This document shows, one piece after another, positions 4,371 to 20,681 of a stretch of DNA of 21,159 nucleotides; position 1 is the first letter of the stretch; each line of letters begins with the position of its first letter. Source of the DNA: a virus. The notes below the pieces were generated by a model. It had not been told where the DNA came from. It ran no database searches and was given only the letters and a program-made list of their open reading frames with translations. The stretch covers positions 1 through 21,159 of IMG/VR virus record IMGVR_UViG_3300006793_004518. The stretch is one strand, 5' to 3'. A program made the translations under genes and the position numbers.

Positions 4371-4617
4371 TGAAGCGTGTCCATGCACCCACTGATATGA
4401 TCCCCAGTATAACTAGAACAAACCACTTAACGGTGGTCGTTACAACAGATTTCTTCACGTCTCTCCAACCGTCAATGAGTTGGCGTAAGTCGTGTATATC
4501 CTTGCCCGCGTCTTCGTCGTGCAGTCCAATGCTAGACAGAGCTTCTTTAGCACCACGTCGAGCGGAACGCTCAACAAGTTGCTCTAGCTCTAATTTTGTC
4601 ATCGTTACTTGCGCCAT
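4363..4617 (-). CDS. Small C-terminally membrane-anchored phage protein (DUF6127-like)
   Basis: 84 residues: a soluble, amphipathic helical N-terminal part (~5-55) with E-L-E-Q-L-V-E-R-S-A-R-R-G-A, then D-E-D-A-G-K-D-I-H-D-L-R-Q-L-I-D-G-W-R, followed by one hydrophobic segment at ~63-79 (K-W-F-V-L-V-I-L-G-I-I-S-V-G). The pattern '.D..A.kDI.DLR.L...WR..K' plus a C-terminal transmembrane helix recalls a family of small proteins found in phage structural operons that I remember as DUF6127; this name is from memory. The start codon shares one base with the stop of the RCC1 protein upstream (TAATG). A single membrane helix near tail genes could mean a holin-like or accessory role, but nothing here proves it. 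Confidence 0.7.
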   Translation of the reverse strand: MAQVTMTKLELEQLVERSARRGAKEALSSIGLHDEDAGKDIHDLRQLIDGWRDVKKSVVTTTVKWFVLVILGIISVGAWTRFND

Positions 4618-6833
4618 TAAAACTGCAACATCGTTGGTGCGTAACGAGCATAGTTTTCGTTACCCAATGAGTATTCAGCGCTGTATCCCCATGTGTAAGC
4701 GTTGCCGTCTTCGGTTAAGGCAATCCCCATAATTTGGTTGGAAGTGCCGTACAGTCCTATATCTATTACCTCTTTTGCAATACCGAGACAGTGGTATTTG
4801 CCAGAATTAGAGTGAGAGGTGGTGTCTCCGACGCCCACTGTACCTGTTCCGTTATAGCCCCAGCAAAGGACTTCACCATCGTCTGTCAACACACAGAAAA
4901 CAAGATAGCTACCAGTTCCACAAACAACCATTCTTTTTACATTGGATGGAAAGTTAGGATAGCCTGTCGGCTCGTATTCACCAGGCCATACAACTGTAGG
5001 GTTGGATGACGGGATGCTGACAAAGTTCTTTCTTGCTGTTGTGCCGCCATCAAGCAGTTGTCCGTAACCGTTGTATCCTGAACTGTAAACTACACCCGCC
5101 GCATCTCTGATGATTGCGGTATTATATTGATCCACATACGTTGCCGCCACACATTCGGATATTGTTGTGTCGCCGTTTGCTTGAGTGTTATTCATAACAA
5201 TAGTAGGCGGTAAGTTTCCGTGAACGCCTTGCCCTAAAGCGCCAGAGTGGGTGGAGTTACTGTCCTGACCCCATGTCCATAAATTGCCGTCGATGTCTCT
5301 AACGTAACCACCCTTTGCTGTCACAAACAGTATTTCTGCGGCAGGCACAGTGATAGCAACCTTTGAATAGTTAGTATTGTTACTATTGCTTACAGGGTTC
5401 TGTCCGCTTGTGTAATGACCAGAGTACCCGCAATGGTAAATGGTTCCATCTTTACCTTGGGCAATAGCAAACGGAGAGTCTTGGTTTGCCGCCCAAAGGT
5501 CTACAAACTGGTCTAGGGAAGCCGTTTGAAACTTGCCAAGTTGTGGGCTGGCTTGCACAAAGTTAAGAGTGGTTGTTGTGTTGCCATCGCCTCTGGAGCC
5601 ATAGCCACCATATCCGCAGTAGTGTATGGTTCCATCATCACAAAGCGCCCATGCGCCGTTGTATGTGCTAACAGACGTACCTCCTTGAGCAAGAACACAT
5701 TTAATTACATTCTTACCGTTCAGAGAGTTTGCGGAATCTGAAGATGCGTTCTGAGGAACGTAAACATCAGTTGTGTTTCCTGTTCCATGCTCGCCGAGGT
5801 GGTTTCGTCCCCATGTCCACAGGTTGTTATCATTATCTACAGCCAGACACATTTGCTGGTAATTATATTGCCAGTACCACCCTTTGTTAGCGTATTCATA
5901 AACAAACCCAGTTGTGTTCAGGGTAATAGTGTTCCCCGCCGTAGCTGTTGTAGAGCCAACGTAGCGGTACATATCCGCCTCTTCGTCGCCGATACGAATG
6001 TATGTAACGCGGTCTGTACCAGCGGTTAAGCCAGCCGCTGTGTATACAGTTGTTTTGTCTTTATCACCAATGTCGGCAAGAGTTAGTGAAGTCCAAGTTG
6101 TGCCGCCGTCTGTGCTTTCTTCAAATACTAAGTCTTCTGTATTTGTGCTGTCAGTCTGATCGAACTTGTAGATGTTCCCCTTGGTCATGTCGATGTTGGG
6201 GTTATCTGTACCATCTATTACAAAGATCGGGTCGCCATTGGTGTCAGTCCCCATTGTCACTGTATGAGTGACTGTGCGTTTATGACGGTTTACCAACTTA
6301 CGTTCAGTCAGCTTTACCCCAGAGAAGTTATGGGGAAAGGCGGCTGTGGTTGGGTTAGGACGGTTGCTTGTCTCTGACCCAATGCCTTGCTGGTAATAAG
6401 TGTTATACCCCCAACTGCGCCAAGTACCGTCTTCCATGATTGCCGCGCCGTATCGGTAAGAGTTTGTGTTCGGCTGGGGTAGGTTGGCAACACGGACGCT
6501 AGAGCGCTGATCGTCTTCAGTCCAAACAGGGAGGTTGGTTACTTCGTCAACTCTTAGAACTTGGTTAGTGTTGGTAGGGGCGATTGATTGAACGCTTGTG
6601 CCATCGTAATACCAAATGCCGCCAGCAGGGGTTCCTGTGCCTTGGCCGATGCCGTTAGTAAATATTACCCATTTAGTAGCGTCTGTGCCAGGTGTTGTAC
6701 CTGTATTGCTATCAATCAAGCTGATGTATGTATCGACGCCCCCAGTAACAATATCTTGTTTACTGTAAGTAGTCGCCGCGTCGTATGCGCCTCTAAATGT
6801 GAAACCTATGGTTCCTAAATTTATTGTTGCCAT
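4617..6833 (-). CDS. RCC1-repeat beta-propeller tail protein, 738 aa
   Basis: A large probable tail-appendage protein. Residues ~11-57 form a small module with F-R-G-A-Y-D-A-A-T-T-Y and a final W, like the carbohydrate-binding-type modules (CBM5/12-like pattern) found in phage fibres. Seven to eight RCC1-like blades follow, each with a W/C-G-Y/R/Q core: R-S-W-G-Y (~139), L-W-T-W-G-R (~338), then further copies to the C-terminal Y-T-W-G-Y. Between the first two blades (~185-315) is a beta-rich insert with N-I-Y-K-F-D-Q-T-D-S, a pattern common in marine phage structural proteins. The gene is 12 bases after its smaller paralogue, with AGGGG as ribosome site. RCC1 propellers are protein- or ligand-binding folds; receptor recognition is inferred from the tail context. 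Confidence 0.8.
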   Translation of the reverse strand: MATINLGTIGFTFRGAYDAATTYSKQDIVTGGVDTYISLIDSNTGTTPGTDATKWVIFTNGIGQGTGTPAGGIWYYDGTSVQSIAPTNTNQVLRVDEVTNLPVWTEDDQRSSVRVANLPQPNTNSYRYGAAIMEDGTWRSWGYNTYYQQGIGSETSNRPNPTTAAFPHNFSGVKLTERKLVNRHKRTVTHTVTMGTDTNGDPIFVIDGTDNPNIDMTKGNIYKFDQTDSTNTEDLVFEESTDGGTTWTSLTLADIGDKDKTTVYTAAGLTAGTDRVTYIRIGDEEADMYRYVGSTTATAGNTITLNTTGFVYEYANKGWYWQYNYQQMCLAVDNDNNLWTWGRNHLGEHGTGNTTDVYVPQNASSDSANSLNGKNVIKCVLAQGGTSVSTYNGAWALCDDGTIHYCGYGGYGSRGDGNTTTTLNFVQASPQLGKFQTASLDQFVDLWAANQDSPFAIAQGKDGTIYHCGYSGHYTSGQNPVSNSNNTNYSKVAITVPAAEILFVTAKGGYVRDIDGNLWTWGQDSNSTHSGALGQGVHGNLPPTIVMNNTQANGDTTISECVAATYVDQYNTAIIRDAAGVVYSSGYNGYGQLLDGGTTARKNFVSIPSSNPTVVWPGEYEPTGYPNFPSNVKRMVVCGTGSYLVFCVLTDDGEVLCWGYNGTGTVGVGDTTSHSNSGKYHCLGIAKEVIDIGLYGTSNQIMGIALTEDGNAYTWGYSAEYSLGNENYARYAPTMLQF

Positions 6834-6845
6834 TTCTTACCCCTG

Positions 6846-8573
6846 TTAAAACTTTACTTGAACTGGCGCATACAGATTGCCAGTTAGTCCACCATCCGCC
6901 AAATTGTAGTTGGAGTTATACCCCCAGTGATATGTCTCGCCGTTTGTGCAATGTGCTATCAAACAAGTATCAGTAGTAGCATCGTGTGCGTATCCAGTCA
7001 TTACCAGTTGGTCTACGGGAGGTAATTTTGCTGGAATCACAATAGATGGTGACGCACCTTGGTCTGTGTGGCCCGTCCCCTTTTGCCCCTTACTACTGTA
7101 ACCAATAACATACACCAACCCGCCGCTCGTCCTTATGGCGTAACAACTACCGTACCTACCACCAACGCTAACAATATCTACCGCGTTTGCTACAGCCACG
7201 TTGTTAAAATCAAGAAGCGTCTCAAAAGTAGTAATTTGGCTTGTGTTACTGCTATTGAGTGGGCTGTGTCCTGTAGTTACTACGGTCTTGTCTTTTTTGA
7301 TAGCCAAGAAGTTAGTGTAAGAACCAGCGGCTCCCTGATAAAAATCTACGTCTTCAAGGACTGGAAGTGATGGATCAAATCTGTCGTTGAAAACCCAACC
7401 GTCTGCACGAGGTGTGGCTTGGTTCCAATACTGATATACACCTTGTTGACTGCCCTGTATGTAAAGCCTTCCGTCTTCTAACAAAACCGCGTCTGTGGGT
7501 TTTTGAGTAGTGTAACTGCCGTTCGTCCGATTGTTATGCGCCCAAGCCTGTTTTACCCTTACGTTTTCACTACCCCACGGATCAAACTTAGCAAATGTGT
7601 ATCTGTCTCTTCCTGTAAAGTTTCTGTTAGCCGAGCCAGACGCCCACAACTTACCGTCGTAATCAATCATATACGAAACCGCTTCATTGCTGTTGCATAT
7701 TGATATGTACTTCATTGGGTGGTCTGCCGTAAAAGGTATTAAGGTCGGAGTTAAAACAGCAGTATTATTGTCAAAGCCAAGGAGACCATCTTGGTTAGCT
7801 CCCCAAGCGTAAACCTTACCAGATGCGCCTCTTGCTAAATAGTTTACGCCTCCGTTGTCATATGCGTTGGCGCTGTAGCCGCCCTTAATCTCAACAATTT
7901 CGTCGTCGCCTATGTCACTGTACCTTGATATAGGAGTGAATTTTGTGCTTTGAAATGTTGCCGCGCCGTGGGTAGCAGACCCATTGTAGTAGTGTCCCGC
8001 AGACCAAAGAACATTGTCAGTGTCTAACAAAAAAGTGTTTAGGTACGAAGTCCATGCTTTTTTTATAAACGTATTGCGAGGAAGAGGCAGTGCTGTCGCG
8101 GAAGCAAGAAACGGGTAGTTTGTTGTCGCCGTAGGGCCAGACTGCATGCCGCTTACTCCGTAAGCGTTATAACCCCAAGCTCTTGCAGTGCCGTCTGTCA
8201 TAACAGCCACATGTTGCCACGCCGCATACCGAGGATGCTCGCTCATCATGTGGGCAAGTTCTTTTACCTTAGTGCCGTTCCTGTCCCTTGAATGGCGAAA
8301 CTCTGGTGTGAAAGTTGCCGTGCCTCCAATGGTCGTCGCCTTTGAGCGAAGTTCATTGCCTCGTGCGCCGACAGGAGAAATGGTATTGTCTACGGCTACA
8401 GAACCTTTTTCCGTTAGCTGTGTTTGACCGACAGCAAACTTACGCTTGTTTGTGCTGTCAGTGAACACATGGGTTTCGTCGCCAACTTTAACAACGTCGC
8501 CTTTCGCGTAAGTGGAAGCTGAGTTATAAGTCCCCTTCCAACGATAACCGAGTTTAGATACGTCTATCTTCAT
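6846..8573 (-). CDS. RCC1-repeat beta-propeller tail protein, 575 aa (paralogue of next gene)
   Basis: The N-terminus (Y-R-W-K-G-T-Y-N-S-A-S-T-Y-A-K-G-D-V-V) aligns by eye with that of the adjacent 738-residue protein, and the C-termini match too (H-W-G-Y-N-S-N-Y-N-L...Y-A-P-V-Q-V-K-F versus T-W-G-Y-S-A-E-Y-S-L...Y-A-P-T-M-L-Q-F). About eight RCC1-like blades can be traced: A-R-A-W-G-Y, L-W-S-A-G-H, V-Y-A-W-G-A, L-W-A-S-G-S, L-Y-I-Q-G-S, V-V-T-T-G-H, V-Y-V-I-G-Y and T-Y-H-W-G-Y. It lacks the beta insert after blade 1. The start overlaps the stop of the upstream gene (ATGA), so translation is coupled. Probably a tail-attached, receptor-facing propeller; the binding partner is unknown. Confidence 0.8.
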   Translation of the reverse strand: MKIDVSKLGYRWKGTYNSASTYAKGDVVKVGDETHVFTDSTNKRKFAVGQTQLTEKGSVAVDNTISPVGARGNELRSKATTIGGTATFTPEFRHSRDRNGTKVKELAHMMSEHPRYAAWQHVAVMTDGTARAWGYNAYGVSGMQSGPTATTNYPFLASATALPLPRNTFIKKAWTSYLNTFLLDTDNVLWSAGHYYNGSATHGAATFQSTKFTPISRYSDIGDDEIVEIKGGYSANAYDNGGVNYLARGASGKVYAWGANQDGLLGFDNNTAVLTPTLIPFTADHPMKYISICNSNEAVSYMIDYDGKLWASGSANRNFTGRDRYTFAKFDPWGSENVRVKQAWAHNNRTNGSYTTQKPTDAVLLEDGRLYIQGSQQGVYQYWNQATPRADGWVFNDRFDPSLPVLEDVDFYQGAAGSYTNFLAIKKDKTVVTTGHSPLNSSNTSQITTFETLLDFNNVAVANAVDIVSVGGRYGSCYAIRTSGGLVYVIGYSSKGQKGTGHTDQGASPSIVIPAKLPPVDQLVMTGYAHDATTDTCLIAHCTNGETYHWGYNSNYNLADGGLTGNLYAPVQVKF

Positions 8574-16467: not shown

Positions 16468-18522
16468 ATGCTTACACGAGCATCCATTACTGATTTCCTC
16501 AATACCTACCAAGGTATGGATGGCAATCAGTCCCGAAACCACCTACGAAAGTTCATCGCTGATAACTTTGTCATGCTAGTAGACCATGACTACTCATACA
16601 GTGATGAGATAATACGTTACTCACAACTTAGTCTACGCAAGTGGATAGACAAGGTTGATTACTGCGTTCTACTCAGCTTGATTCAAGCGGCTCTGCACGA
16701 CTGGCATCAGCGAGACACCACAGGCAATGCGAAGCATGACTATCGCACTGACTGGTTCAATGCAGTTGTCACCGCACTCAATGATACCAACACCTGTCAC
16801 CCAAAACGTAGAGGTCTTGGCAAGTCTTGGGGGTTTCCCAGAACAATCAGTAAAGATGGCAAATCAATATGTCAGGACATAAGGAACCTGGCAGGAACTG
16901 GAGACCAAAACAACGCCGTGTTCAACCACGGACAACAACCAAACCAAAACTCAAACCAAACAGGAGATAGCATGTCTGTACCTAACCCAAGCGAAATGAT
17001 GTACGCAAATACTTGTGTCGCAATACACAATCAGACACTGGTCATGGACGGATTCGCAAACAGCCATGACCCAGTGACTTACCCCGACGAGTCACAAGTC
17101 AGGGACATCATGGCCACGATGAACGTAGCGACTACCAGAGGGGATGACTACGCTGGTGCAGTGTCCGCTACCGTCCAGCTTATGAGCATTGGCGGTGTTC
17201 AAGATTGGCAGAACATTGACCAGCTACTAGCAATGGCGAGTAACTCAGACAACTTTGATACCGTAGCAATCAAGCAATCTATGGAGAAACTTACAGCCAG
17301 TGACAACGAGCCAACGGCAGAGCCAAGCGACGAGCCTACTCAAGCGAAGGCTTCGTGGTCTATTGACCCGACGCTCAAGCCAGCTATTGATGCTTTGCTC
17401 AAACAGAACAACAACCTGTCCTTTGACCAGATGGTTGACCAGTTCAACGAGCAAGTATCCAAGGTCATGGAGTTATCCAACCAAGTCACGAGGCTATCCA
17501 ATGCTTCAAGCAACGTGCCAGCCATGCCTACTGGTGGTGTGGATGATGACCTGACCTTCGAGGTTGTGATGGCTGACGCTGGTAAAGTCTTTGGACGCAA
17601 GGTCAAAGCACTGGCTTTCGAGATACCTACGTTGGTATGGCGCAATGCAAGTGGTGATGAGGTTCGTCACCCACTATGCCCCGACACTGATGACAACTAC
17701 GAGTTCAGACCTGACCACCTAATCAAGTTCTTGTCTGCTCACTTGTTCGGGCAGAACCTATGGCTACATGGCCACACTGGTACAGGCAAGACTACGTTGG
17801 CTGAACAAGTTGCGGCGAGAGTTGGCTTCCCTGTTCACCGACTAAACCTCGATAGTAACATCGAGCGTAGCGATATGGTTGGCTCAAAAGAGTTGGTCGT
17901 TGAGAACGGTGTACCAGTTACGTCGTATGCTGAGGGTATCCTACCACGAGCCATGCAACAGCCATCATTCCTTATCCTCGACGAGATGGATGCAGGACAA
18001 GCCGATGTGTTGTTCACTATTCAACGTGCGTTGGAGAAGAAGGGATTGGTACTGACCGAGGATGGTGGTCGTGTTGTTCAATCACACCCACTGTTCCGCT
18101 TCATCGCCACTGCTAACAGCCGCGGACAGGGTGACGAGTATGGCTGGTATCAAGGTGTTCGCCCCATGAATGTGGCTACGTTGGATCGCTTCGGTGTGTT
18201 CATTGAGGTTGACTACCTAGACAAAACCACTGAGCAGAAGTTGCTATGCAACAAGTACCCGACGTTGAGCAAGCCAGAGGCTACCGAGATGTGCCAGTTC
18301 AGCACTGAGATACGCCAAGCGTTCAAGACTGGCGAGTTGTCTACCACCATATCACCACGAGGCATGGACAGTTTGGTCATGTACTACTTGCATATGTCCA
18401 AGCTAATGCCTGACCGCAAGACAGCACTCAAGAAATCGCTTGAGGTTGTTATCACTGACCGCGCACCAGCAGACAGCACTCGAACCGTTATCGAAATGGC
18501 TGACCGCGTATTCTCATACTAA
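16468..18522 (+). CDS. MoxR/CobS-like AAA+ ATPase, 684 aa
   Basis: The C-terminal half is a clear AAA+ ATPase of the MoxR/CobS type. Motifs: Walker A G-H-T-G-T-G-K-T (~435-442), then Q-V-A-A-R-V-G-F-P-V-H-R-L-N-L-D-S and D-M-V-G (CobS-like), Walker B F-L-I-L-D-E (~501-506) followed by M-D-A-G, sensor F-I-A-T-A-N-S, and L-D-R-F-G as arginine-finger region. This closely follows CobS, the AAA+ partner of CobT. Residues 1-~168 are an unrelated N-terminal part, and ~290-365 a helical linker. MoxR ATPases remodel or load partner proteins together with VWA proteins, and the next gene encodes just such a protein. The start has GAGG 6 bases upstream; a second, stronger start lies at 16972. No cobN is visible, so cobalt insertion is unlikely to be the role. 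Confidence 0.88.
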   Translation: MLTRASITDFLNTYQGMDGNQSRNHLRKFIADNFVMLVDHDYSYSDEIIRYSQLSLRKWIDKVDYCVLLSLIQAALHDWHQRDTTGNAKHDYRTDWFNAVVTALNDTNTCHPKRRGLGKSWGFPRTISKDGKSICQDIRNLAGTGDQNNAVFNHGQQPNQNSNQTGDSMSVPNPSEMMYANTCVAIHNQTLVMDGFANSHDPVTYPDESQVRDIMATMNVATTRGDDYAGAVSATVQLMSIGGVQDWQNIDQLLAMASNSDNFDTVAIKQSMEKLTASDNEPTAEPSDEPTQAKASWSIDPTLKPAIDALLKQNNNLSFDQMVDQFNEQVSKVMELSNQVTRLSNASSNVPAMPTGGVDDDLTFEVVMADAGKVFGRKVKALAFEIPTLVWRNASGDEVRHPLCPDTDDNYEFRPDHLIKFLSAHLFGQNLWLHGHTGTGKTTLAEQVAARVGFPVHRLNLDSNIERSDMVGSKELVVENGVPVTSYAEGILPRAMQQPSFLILDEMDAGQADVLFTIQRALEKKGLVLTEDGGRVVQSHPLFRFIATANSRGQGDEYGWYQGVRPMNVATLDRFGVFIEVDYLDKTTEQKLLCNKYPTLSKPEATEMCQFSTEIRQAFKTGELSTTISPRGMDSLVMYYLHMSKLMPDRKTALKKSLEVVITDRAPADSTRTVIEMADRVFSY
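16962..16974 (+). promoter_or_regulatory. Internal ribosome-binding site and ATG within the AAA+ gene
   Basis: AGGAG, a 5-base spacer and ATG (16972-16974) lie in frame inside the AAA+ gene. The preceding A/C-rich stretch (ACCAAACC-type) looks like the leaders before the genes at 14250 and 14718. Translation from here would give a 516-residue ATPase that lacks the first 168 residues. Confidence 0.65.
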
Positions 18523-18533
18523 GGGAGAGATGA

Positions 18534-20681
18534 ATGAGAAAATCACAACGTAAAATCACATACATACCAGACACTGGCGACTTGGATACAGCCTACTGCT
18601 CTGGTGGAGAGTTGATGGACGCAACGAAAGCTGTTGTGTCCACGCTCTCAAGAAAATCCAAGACCACTGTCAGCTTTGCTGGTGACGGTGCGTACACTGA
18701 TGGTGAGAACGTAGTGCTACCAGCATTGCCGACTAACGCTACGATCACTAAGCGTCAGGGACTGGTGACTGGCGGCTATGCCAACCACGAGACACTGCAC
18801 AATCTGCTCACCGAGTTCGGTGGTGAGACAGAGAACATGTGTCGTCAATGGCATATAGATGGGCGCAAGTTCACGTTGTCACTAGCCAATGCTATGGAGG
18901 ATATCCGTATTGAGATGGGTGGTCGTGATCTATACAACGGCTTGCCCAAAGCTATTGACCACACTGCACATGCAGTCAACCAAGTATTCCTTGACAACTA
19001 CAATGCTGGCAAGGAAGGGTACACAGATGCGGTCAATGACTTTGCTCAGATTGCGGCAGTCGCAGTGACTTGGGAGGGTCGTCGTCGGCTTGGGTATCCA
19101 TCAGATACAATGCAGAAATGCCTAGACCTTTTGCCAGCAGACATACTGAAGAGGGTCAACATCATTGTTGATGCTGTTCAGACGTTGCCTACTGGTGTGA
19201 CAGGGATGGGAGACGTAGACCAACAAGCCGCGTACCGTGGTTGTAGACAATTACACAAACTTGCAGAGAGGATTGCAGATGACTACCAAAGAGAACAAAC
19301 AAACAACGGCCAATCTTCCAGCAATAATGACAAGACTGTTGGAGGAGGGGGGAGCGCCACAAATAGCCAAGACAATGGCGATGCTCAACGAGAGGGAGAT
19401 CAAGGAACTGCTGGAGGTTCTACAGTTCCAGATGCAACAAGCCCTGTTGGAGATGGCAGTCAAGGTTCTGGCGAGGGACAACGAGATCAAGAGTCTCAAG
19501 ACCCAACTAGCGGAGACCGAGAAGTAGCCACTACCAGTGAGGTATCTGGTAACGACAAACAGACTTCGTATGACCAAGCCTGTGATAGTGCAATTGACAC
19601 AGCATGGGAAGCCAACAACTGTAAGCCAGCCATTGATGGTGATCTGACCAGAGCCATCGAAGATGTTACGTCGGAGATAATGAAGCAGAAGATCGAAGGT
19701 GGTCGTCACCTAGTATTCTGCAAGGATGCCGACTACTGGCTCACCAGTCTGAAGGACAAGACCAAGTTCAATGGTATGCAAGCCACCAGATCAACCAGAC
19801 TGGTAGGCGGTGAGAGTGAGTATGCACGACGGCTCAAAGGTATGGGCAACAAGCTGGGTACAATGCGCCGCAAGCTTGAACGTGCTTTGTCCTCACAAAA
19901 ACGTAGCCGCTACGAGCCTCGTAAGAGGCATGGCAAGCTAGACACTGGCAAGCTAACTAACATCGTGAGGTTTGACCCCAACGTATTCAGACACAAAGTA
20001 ATTGATGACCATGTTAATACTGCTGTGTCTGTATGCGTTGACCTGTCTGGCTCTATGGGTGGTGCAGAAGTAAGTCTAGCAACCGACTGCTGTATTGCGA
20101 TTGGTGAAGCACTGCAAGGCACTGGTGTCGCTCTTGAGATCACTGGTCACAATACTGCTGGTCGTAGCAAGGGTGTGTTCAAAGACTCTGGTACTAGAAG
20201 ATACAATCGCAAGTCATCCATCCGCATGGTTATGTTCAAGCCGTTTGACCAGCCACTGCAACGTAGTCGTGGTGCTATCGGCAAGATGCCTTACAGCACT
20301 GGGGCTACCAATGCTGACGGTGACGCTTGGATGTATGCGGCTGACAGATTGTTGGACAGACCAGAACAACGCAAGGTGATGATGATCTTGGCAGATGGTC
20401 GTCCCAACTACAGTAACGATTACGGATCAGGTGATTGCTACAAGCACACAAGAAATGTTGTCGAGTGGCTGGGGCTTAATGGCATTGACACTGTTGGCAT
20501 CGGTATCGGTGATGATTGTGTCAAGCAGTTCTTCCCTCGCTACGTTGTCGTCCAAGACATAGACGATCTGTCCAAGCATGTGATGGATCAGCTTGGCAAG
20601 ATGCTCCTCGGTGAGAGGTTCCACGTTGATAACTCTGACCTCATCTCAAGTAGTGTTCGTGATGCCCGCAACGCCCGCTAA
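18534..20681 (+). CDS. CobT-like protein: HExxH N-domain plus VWA domain, 715 aa
   Basis: Partner of the AAA+ protein, starting 11 bases after its stop with GGGAGAG upstream. The N-terminal domain has H-E-T-L-H at 85-89 and E-D-I-R-I-E at 122-127, the combination seen in the putative metallopeptidase domain that accompanies VWA domains (DUF2201_N type) and in many phage CobT-like proteins. Residues ~255-345 are a low-complexity Gly/Ser/Asp/Asn/Gln linker. The C-terminal VWA domain (~495-690) has the MIDAS D-L-S-G-S (503-507), a likely MIDAS Thr in G-A-T-N-A-D-G (~590-596) and L-A-D-G-R (D621), all intact. CobT family members work with CobS-like ATPases. Peptidase activity is only suggested by the motif. 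A second gene is nested in its linker. Confidence 0.88.
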   Translation: MRKSQRKITYIPDTGDLDTAYCSGGELMDATKAVVSTLSRKSKTTVSFAGDGAYTDGENVVLPALPTNATITKRQGLVTGGYANHETLHNLLTEFGGETENMCRQWHIDGRKFTLSLANAMEDIRIEMGGRDLYNGLPKAIDHTAHAVNQVFLDNYNAGKEGYTDAVNDFAQIAAVAVTWEGRRRLGYPSDTMQKCLDLLPADILKRVNIIVDAVQTLPTGVTGMGDVDQQAAYRGCRQLHKLAERIADDYQREQTNNGQSSSNNDKTVGGGGSATNSQDNGDAQREGDQGTAGGSTVPDATSPVGDGSQGSGEGQRDQESQDPTSGDREVATTSEVSGNDKQTSYDQACDSAIDTAWEANNCKPAIDGDLTRAIEDVTSEIMKQKIEGGRHLVFCKDADYWLTSLKDKTKFNGMQATRSTRLVGGESEYARRLKGMGNKLGTMRRKLERALSSQKRSRYEPRKRHGKLDTGKLTNIVRFDPNVFRHKVIDDHVNTAVSVCVDLSGSMGGAEVSLATDCCIAIGEALQGTGVALEITGHNTAGRSKGVFKDSGTRRYNRKSSIRMVMFKPFDQPLQRSRGAIGKMPYSTGATNADGDAWMYAADRLLDRPEQRKVMMILADGRPNYSNDYGSGDCYKHTRNVVEWLGLNGIDTVGIGIGDDCVKQFFPRYVVVQDIDDLSKHVMDQLGKMLLGERFHVDNSDLISSSVRDARNAR
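19279..19527 (+). CDS. Candidate overlapping gene nested in the CobT-like linker, 82 aa
   Basis: In another frame (+1 relative to the CobT-like gene) an ATG at 19279 has GAGAGGA 6 bases upstream and opens 82 codons to TAG. The product looks like a real protein: L-P-A-I-M-T-R-L-L-E-E-G-G-A-P-Q, then L-N-E-R-E-I-K-E-L-L-E-V-L-Q-F-Q-M and L-A-R-D-N-E-I-K-S-L-K-T-Q-L-A-E, a helical, coiled-coil-like sequence. The host frame over the same bases (CobT-like residues ~249-331) is low-complexity Gly/Ser/Asn/Asp filler. The nested frame thus occupies almost exactly the unconstrained linker, which favours a true overlapping gene over chance. Its function is unknown; a small helical partner of the AAA+/VWA pair is a guess. 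Confidence 0.6.
   Translation: MTTKENKQTTANLPAIMTRLLEEGGAPQIAKTMAMLNEREIKELLEVLQFQMQQALLEMAVKVLARDNEIKSLKTQLAETEK

Follow-up and report, generated by a model that had tools for sequence, protein, structure and literature searches.

A probable overprinted gene nested in the linker of a CobT-like VWA gene in one clade of marine phages

In phage lambda the gene Rz1 lies wholly embedded, as an overprinted gene, within Rz. Gene E of phiX174 stands in the same relation to gene D (PMC8227390). The candidate gene described here, in the window (the whole stretch of viral DNA analysed, 21,159 nucleotides of IMG/VR record IMGVR_UViG_3300006793_004518), resembles both in being small, wholly inside another gene, in a different frame of the same strand and with a start of its own. 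It is unlike them in that the predicted product is no lysis protein and shows neither a hydrophobic nor a lipoprotein segment in its sequence, and in that the gene lies in the linker of one belonging to a tailed-phage AAA+/VWA system. An Rz/Rz1 spanin pair was considered and set aside, the nested sequence having neither a hydrophobic N-terminus nor a lipobox and the neighbouring gene encoding an AAA+ ATPase. Two products from one chelatase-type gene are also the outcome for the frameshifted chlD of Antonov and colleagues, where programmed frameshifting gives subunits sharing their N-terminus, whereas here an unrelated protein would be made from an internal start (PMC9227772). A further likeness is to overlapping orphan genes of E. 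coli in the de novo origin within a pre-existing gene (PMC4683798, PMC2268670), although the present case differs in its nested-frame selection over several lineages and in that the residues of the enclosing gene, and not those of the nested one, are nearly unconstrained. Small overprinted nested genes are a known kind, and it is the protein family and its site that appear to be new within the searches made; the nested gene was absent from searches of annotated phages.

The enclosing gene (the host gene below) is part of a CobS/CobT-like pair shared with CRP-810-type phages and other tailed viruses (PMC11288001, PMC8651126). Roseobacter phage CRP-810 is the founder of a globally distributed marine phage family of eight subgroups, almost all members of which have cobS and cobT, the phage function of cobT being uncertain (PMC11288001). 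The terminase and capsid proteins of the window are 57.6% and 61.6% identical to those of CRP-810, and this places the phage near it. CRP-810 itself is without the nested gene, unlike the window phage. Its cobT linker (L006, 3693-5645) is open in the +1 frame for 111 codons from stop to stop, and that frame was rejected as a nested homologue, its translation not being recognisably related. The word "overlap" is absent from the main text of the CRP-810 paper (PMC11288001). The pair and the domains of the host protein lie as follows.

16468..18522, + strand: CobS-like AAA+ ATPase gene, 684 aa, directly upstream of the host gene (PF07728 E=1.3e-16; PHROG 249 E=1.7e-56; Walker A GHTGTGKTT)
18534..20681, + strand: host gene, CobT-like VWA-domain protein, 715 aa (PF11775 CobT_C E=2e-32; PHROG 1576 E=4.5e-61)
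19279..19568, + strand: low-complexity Gly/Ser/Asn/Asp/Gln linker, host residues ~249-345 (translation; alignment to relatives, both those having the nested gene and those lacking it)
19983..20609, + strand: C-terminal VWA domain with the MIDAS-type motif DLSGSMG (PF11775 on residues 484-692; motif from the translation)

Assignment of the host to the CobT family is by PF11775 at 113.1 bits, against a Pfam cut-off of 21, and an AAA+ ORF is also upstream in the 10 related loci examined. In nine related phage records, fragments among them, no CobN was found, which leaves the CobNST cobaltochelatase set incomplete there; nothing therefore suggests that a complete chelatase is encoded by these phages. 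It has been proposed that phage CobS/CobT hijack the CobN of the infected cell (PMC8651126), and a chelatase-independent AAA+/VWA remodelling role for the phage pair is equally conceivable. Within the CobS-like gene the stretch 16729-17143 (codons ~87-225) evolves fast and with little periodicity, the third-position share between relatives being 0.21-0.36; a scan of it gave no consistent alternative-frame signal. Elsewhere in the window, at 4617-6833 and 6846-8573 on the minus strand, two adjacent large proteins among the structural genes both match PHROG families named for the regulator of chromosome condensation; they have RCC1-like repeats (phrog_4219) and are possibly tail-fibre or receptor-binding proteins.

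Within the host gene the nested ORF and its putative ribosome-binding site are placed thus.

19266..19272, + strand: Shine-Dalgarno element GAGAGGA of the nested gene, 6-nt spacer (duplex energy, codon retention)
19279..19527, + strand: nested gene in the +1 frame of the host gene, predicted product acidic, helical and of 82 aa (conservation, dNN/dNS, codon periodicity)

The ORF of 82 codons, to whose product the peptide EIKELLEVLQFQ belongs, runs from an ATG at 19279 to a TAG at 19525-19527, +1 relative to the host frame, and the start and the Shine-Dalgarno element with a 6-base spacer were found just where a sequence-only reading of this DNA had placed them. That reading had also described the overlapped host residues (~249-331) as repetitive Gly/Ser/Asn/Asp filler, as their translation confirms, and they make up the linker separating the N-terminal domain from the VWA domain. 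An in-frame GTG at 19237 would yield 96 aa and is unavailable in some carriers. Annotation that forbids long overlaps would miss such a gene. The nested frame stands at the identical place in the window and 12 other IMG/VR contigs (13 in total), the host proteins of these relatives being 92%, ~70%, ~56% or ~45% identical. Start and stop are both conserved within the host gene, and the ATG is kept wherever the contig extends far enough to include it (in L053 the nested start is lost to the contig end). Length changes in the region are in-frame and leave the nested frame open. Nested products can be aligned throughout, with 14 invariant positions, and between the window and L004 the nested proteins are 72% identical when only about half of the overlapped host residues are. 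A nested-protein profile searched against 142 sequences recovers carriers only, at E<1e-30, with no weaker matches. Judged from such comparisons the nested ORF is almost certainly a protein-coding gene, and that it is at once real and internally initiated is very probable.

The predicted products have 82-98 aa and a pI of 5.1-6.6. AlphaFold gives the window protein two short helices followed by one of 44 residues (pLDDT 82), in keeping with the helical, coiled-coil-like product that had been proposed from the letters. The L022 model (pLDDT 72) is likewise helical and matches in the first two helices, with the long helix broken in two; the alignments are shallow, so the tertiary details of either model are not to be trusted. 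There was no credible match to a known family in Pfam, PHROGs, PADLOC or PDB sequences, and Foldseek against PDB and BFVD found no fold relative with E<=0.001. An MLLE domain was rejected, its best E of 0.0035 lying below the Pfam cut-off and occurring in 2 of 7 members, with no hit among the window protein's own matches and no MLLE structural match.

What such a protein does can be framed in two ways. It may be an adaptor or regulator of the CobS-like AAA+ and CobT-like VWA pair, and conjecturally would be made in step with CobT because one message encodes both. Co-location and co-inheritance are the basis for supposing that it works with the pair, which is possible though somewhat short of an even prospect. 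The fuller proposal, of a third AAA+/VWA subunit, helical and folded, born de novo in the flexible linker of the subunit it serves and co-produced with it, is more tentative again. Nearly evenly balanced is the reading that the gene is real and independent of CobS/CobT, its product being, for instance, a small protein for host takeover or counter-defence. Accessory roles are common among viral overprinted proteins (PMC8227390), embedding alone says nothing on partnership and the nested protein is without a known relative in the searches made; the gene has never been lost or moved away from cobT in any carrier, which tells against independence weakly, because an embedded gene cannot easily move. 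For the phage CobS/CobT pair the nested protein is a new candidate partner, and one that can be tested.

On the cobS-cobT message the nested protein would be translated from a Shine-Dalgarno and an ATG of its own. The duplex energy of the Shine-Dalgarno in the window is -6.5, a value matched by just 2 of the gene's 53 other ATGs, and across the 7 of 7 carrier lineages tested the anti-Shine-Dalgarno duplex energy is -5.4 to -6.6, with rivals usually at 1-2 of the ~50 other ATGs of the same gene (6 of 54 in L027). The sequence-predicted ribosome-binding site includes a rare Arg codon AGG (19269-19271), retained in 7 of 8 aligned carriers and in L020 the sole AGG of the entire gene. Non-carriers have CGT, CGG, CGC, CGA, AGA or ATG at the homologous Arg site. 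In L051/L052 Lys (AAA) replaces the AGG, and a GGAG slightly further upstream takes its place. A nested-frame stop lies 2 codons upstream of the ATG in L027 and 6 codons upstream in L051/L052, with no start codon between in the latter, and so no alternative in-frame start is to be had there and almost no space for entry by frameshifting. The start region is predicted to be poorly accessible in the window (rank 45 of 53), which tells against it there, and to be more accessible in most relatives. Accessibility apart, these features taken together give strong indirect support to internal initiation.

Programmed +1 frameshifting that fuses the CobT N-terminal domain to a nested helical tail is by comparison quite improbable. 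It has a precedent in the alternative decoding documented for the related chelatase gene chlD (PMC9227772), and the AGG, a codon sometimes shift-prone, stands just before the start in most lineages. Against it are the ATG conserved in every complete carrier, the strong Shine-Dalgarno of each lineage tested (even with AGG changed to AAA in L051/L052), the upstream stops that confine any shift to a few codons and the want of a slippery heptamer evident by eye.

Selection on the two frames carries most of the argument for a coding function of the internally initiated ORF. The two frames are offset so that host third positions coincide with nested second positions and host first positions with nested third ones. 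Outside the ORF host third positions change most, and inside it they change least, with host first positions changing most. Between the window and L002 the differences at host positions 1/2/3 are 10/2/0 inside and 34/23/104 outside (Fisher 9e-6), which is.12/.02/.00 against.05/.04/.16 per position, and 0 of 82 host third positions have changed across the ORF as against 104 of 631 elsewhere. L004 and L019 give 17/5/4 inside and 40/24/123 outside (Fisher 1.6e-6), L020 and L022 give 43/30/22 and 130/103/271 (Fisher 2.7e-8), and for the window and L052 the periodicity flip stands at 1.5e-8. Binned along the gene, periodicity is normal until just before the ATG, inverted within the ORF and normal again after the stop. 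Pooled over the three independent pairs window-L002, L004-L019 and L020-L022, with a pairwise estimator that simplifies the OLGenie approach and was written for this analysis (not OLGenie as published), nested dNN/dNS is 0.30 (95% 0.20-0.43) and host dNN/dSN is 1.16 (0.77-1.84), so that the nested frame is under purifying selection and the linker residues not detectably so. For the deepest sub-clades (L052-L020) the nested dNN/dNS of 0.96 is attributable to saturation and weak alignment, and the positional test still holds there (1.2e-5).

No inversion of comparable strength was seen in ten control pairs from other CobT-like lineages. Nested genes were looked for in the CobT-like families of Vibrio ICP2, Rhizobium, SSU5/Klebsiella and Pseudomonas phages and in IMG/VR L031/L033/L034, and were rejected for want of a comparable flip; the lowest third-position share in any 60-codon window is 0.25-0.55 in non-clade families, falling at differing places, versus 0.00, 0.00 and 0.35 in carrier pairs. 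A comparison of substitution in both frames had been proposed as the check on the sequence-only reading, and it bears that reading out: start and frame persist in relatives, and the suppression of host-synonymous change coincides precisely with the extent of the ORF. Stops or a missing start beside unreduced synonymous variation, the pattern named beforehand as fatal to the idea, did not turn up among carrier relatives.

Synonymous suppression can come from any overlapping function, and a structured RNA or a DNA signal within the linker, with no protein made, might have the same effect; that explanation is hardly credible here, as the substitutions that remain sit at the third position of nested codons, dNN/dNS for the nested frame is far under 1, the length changes keep the nested frame open and it is a translated profile that recovers every carrier. 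ORF length by itself was rejected as proof of a gene. With host synonymous codons shuffled, a +1-frame ATG ORF of at least the nested length arose in 1251 of 2000 trials (~63%) and the nested region stayed open in 1166 of 2000, so the length is no better than chance and the case for a gene depends on comparison and on the Shine-Dalgarno. A chance open frame left by a low-complexity linker, which this non-significant length and the likewise +1-open outgroup linkers with their unrelated translations might seem to favour, has a negligible claim in the face of clade-wide conservation, the periodicity switch, Shine-Dalgarno retention and monophyly.

On the tree the carriers are 10 of 70 distinct host proteins and form one clade with support of 1.0, nine sister-clade sequences all being without the nested gene; the nested gene is restricted to a sub-clade of an older host gene. 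Alignment shows a low-complexity linker of like kind in relatives that lack it, and since the linker is older than the nested gene, overprinting would have happened once. The simplest reading of these sequences is that the ancestor of one marine phage clade already had the flexible linker, that this was overprinted a single time and that the nested gene has been retained since; loss in all sister lineages is less economical, and within the carrier clade no loss was seen. Being nearly unconstrained, the linker sequence would tolerate the overlap, and the nested frame would set the linker residues in use. An earlier suggestion that the linker was shaped by the nested gene survives in that sense, its current residues being dictated by the nested frame, and fails as to the linker itself, which non-carriers also possess. 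A stand-alone homologue of the 82-aa product, which it had been advised to seek, was not found in annotated phage records, IMG/VR, GTDB contigs or outgroup-locus records within search sensitivity, and scans of bacterial and archaeal genomes gave no relative of either protein.

L072 and L094, of the sister lineage, both have an ATG at the corresponding site with the same Ile-Ala-Asn context, but there the +1 frame stays open for only 6 codons, and CGG encodes the Arg. This resembles the state before gene birth, and L093 clusters with the two on the tree. The tree thus allows the gene's birth to be located, beside a sister having the ATG and a closed frame, and the finding supports disordered linkers as permissive sites of gene birth. 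It also adds a statistically well-supported hidden gene to relatives of a globally distributed marine phage family. The CobT-like gene reaches far beyond phages. Distant relatives of its protein, full-length or C-terminal, occur in about 1760 plasmid records, under the annotations hypothetical, VWA, CobT or porphyrin biosynthesis protein.
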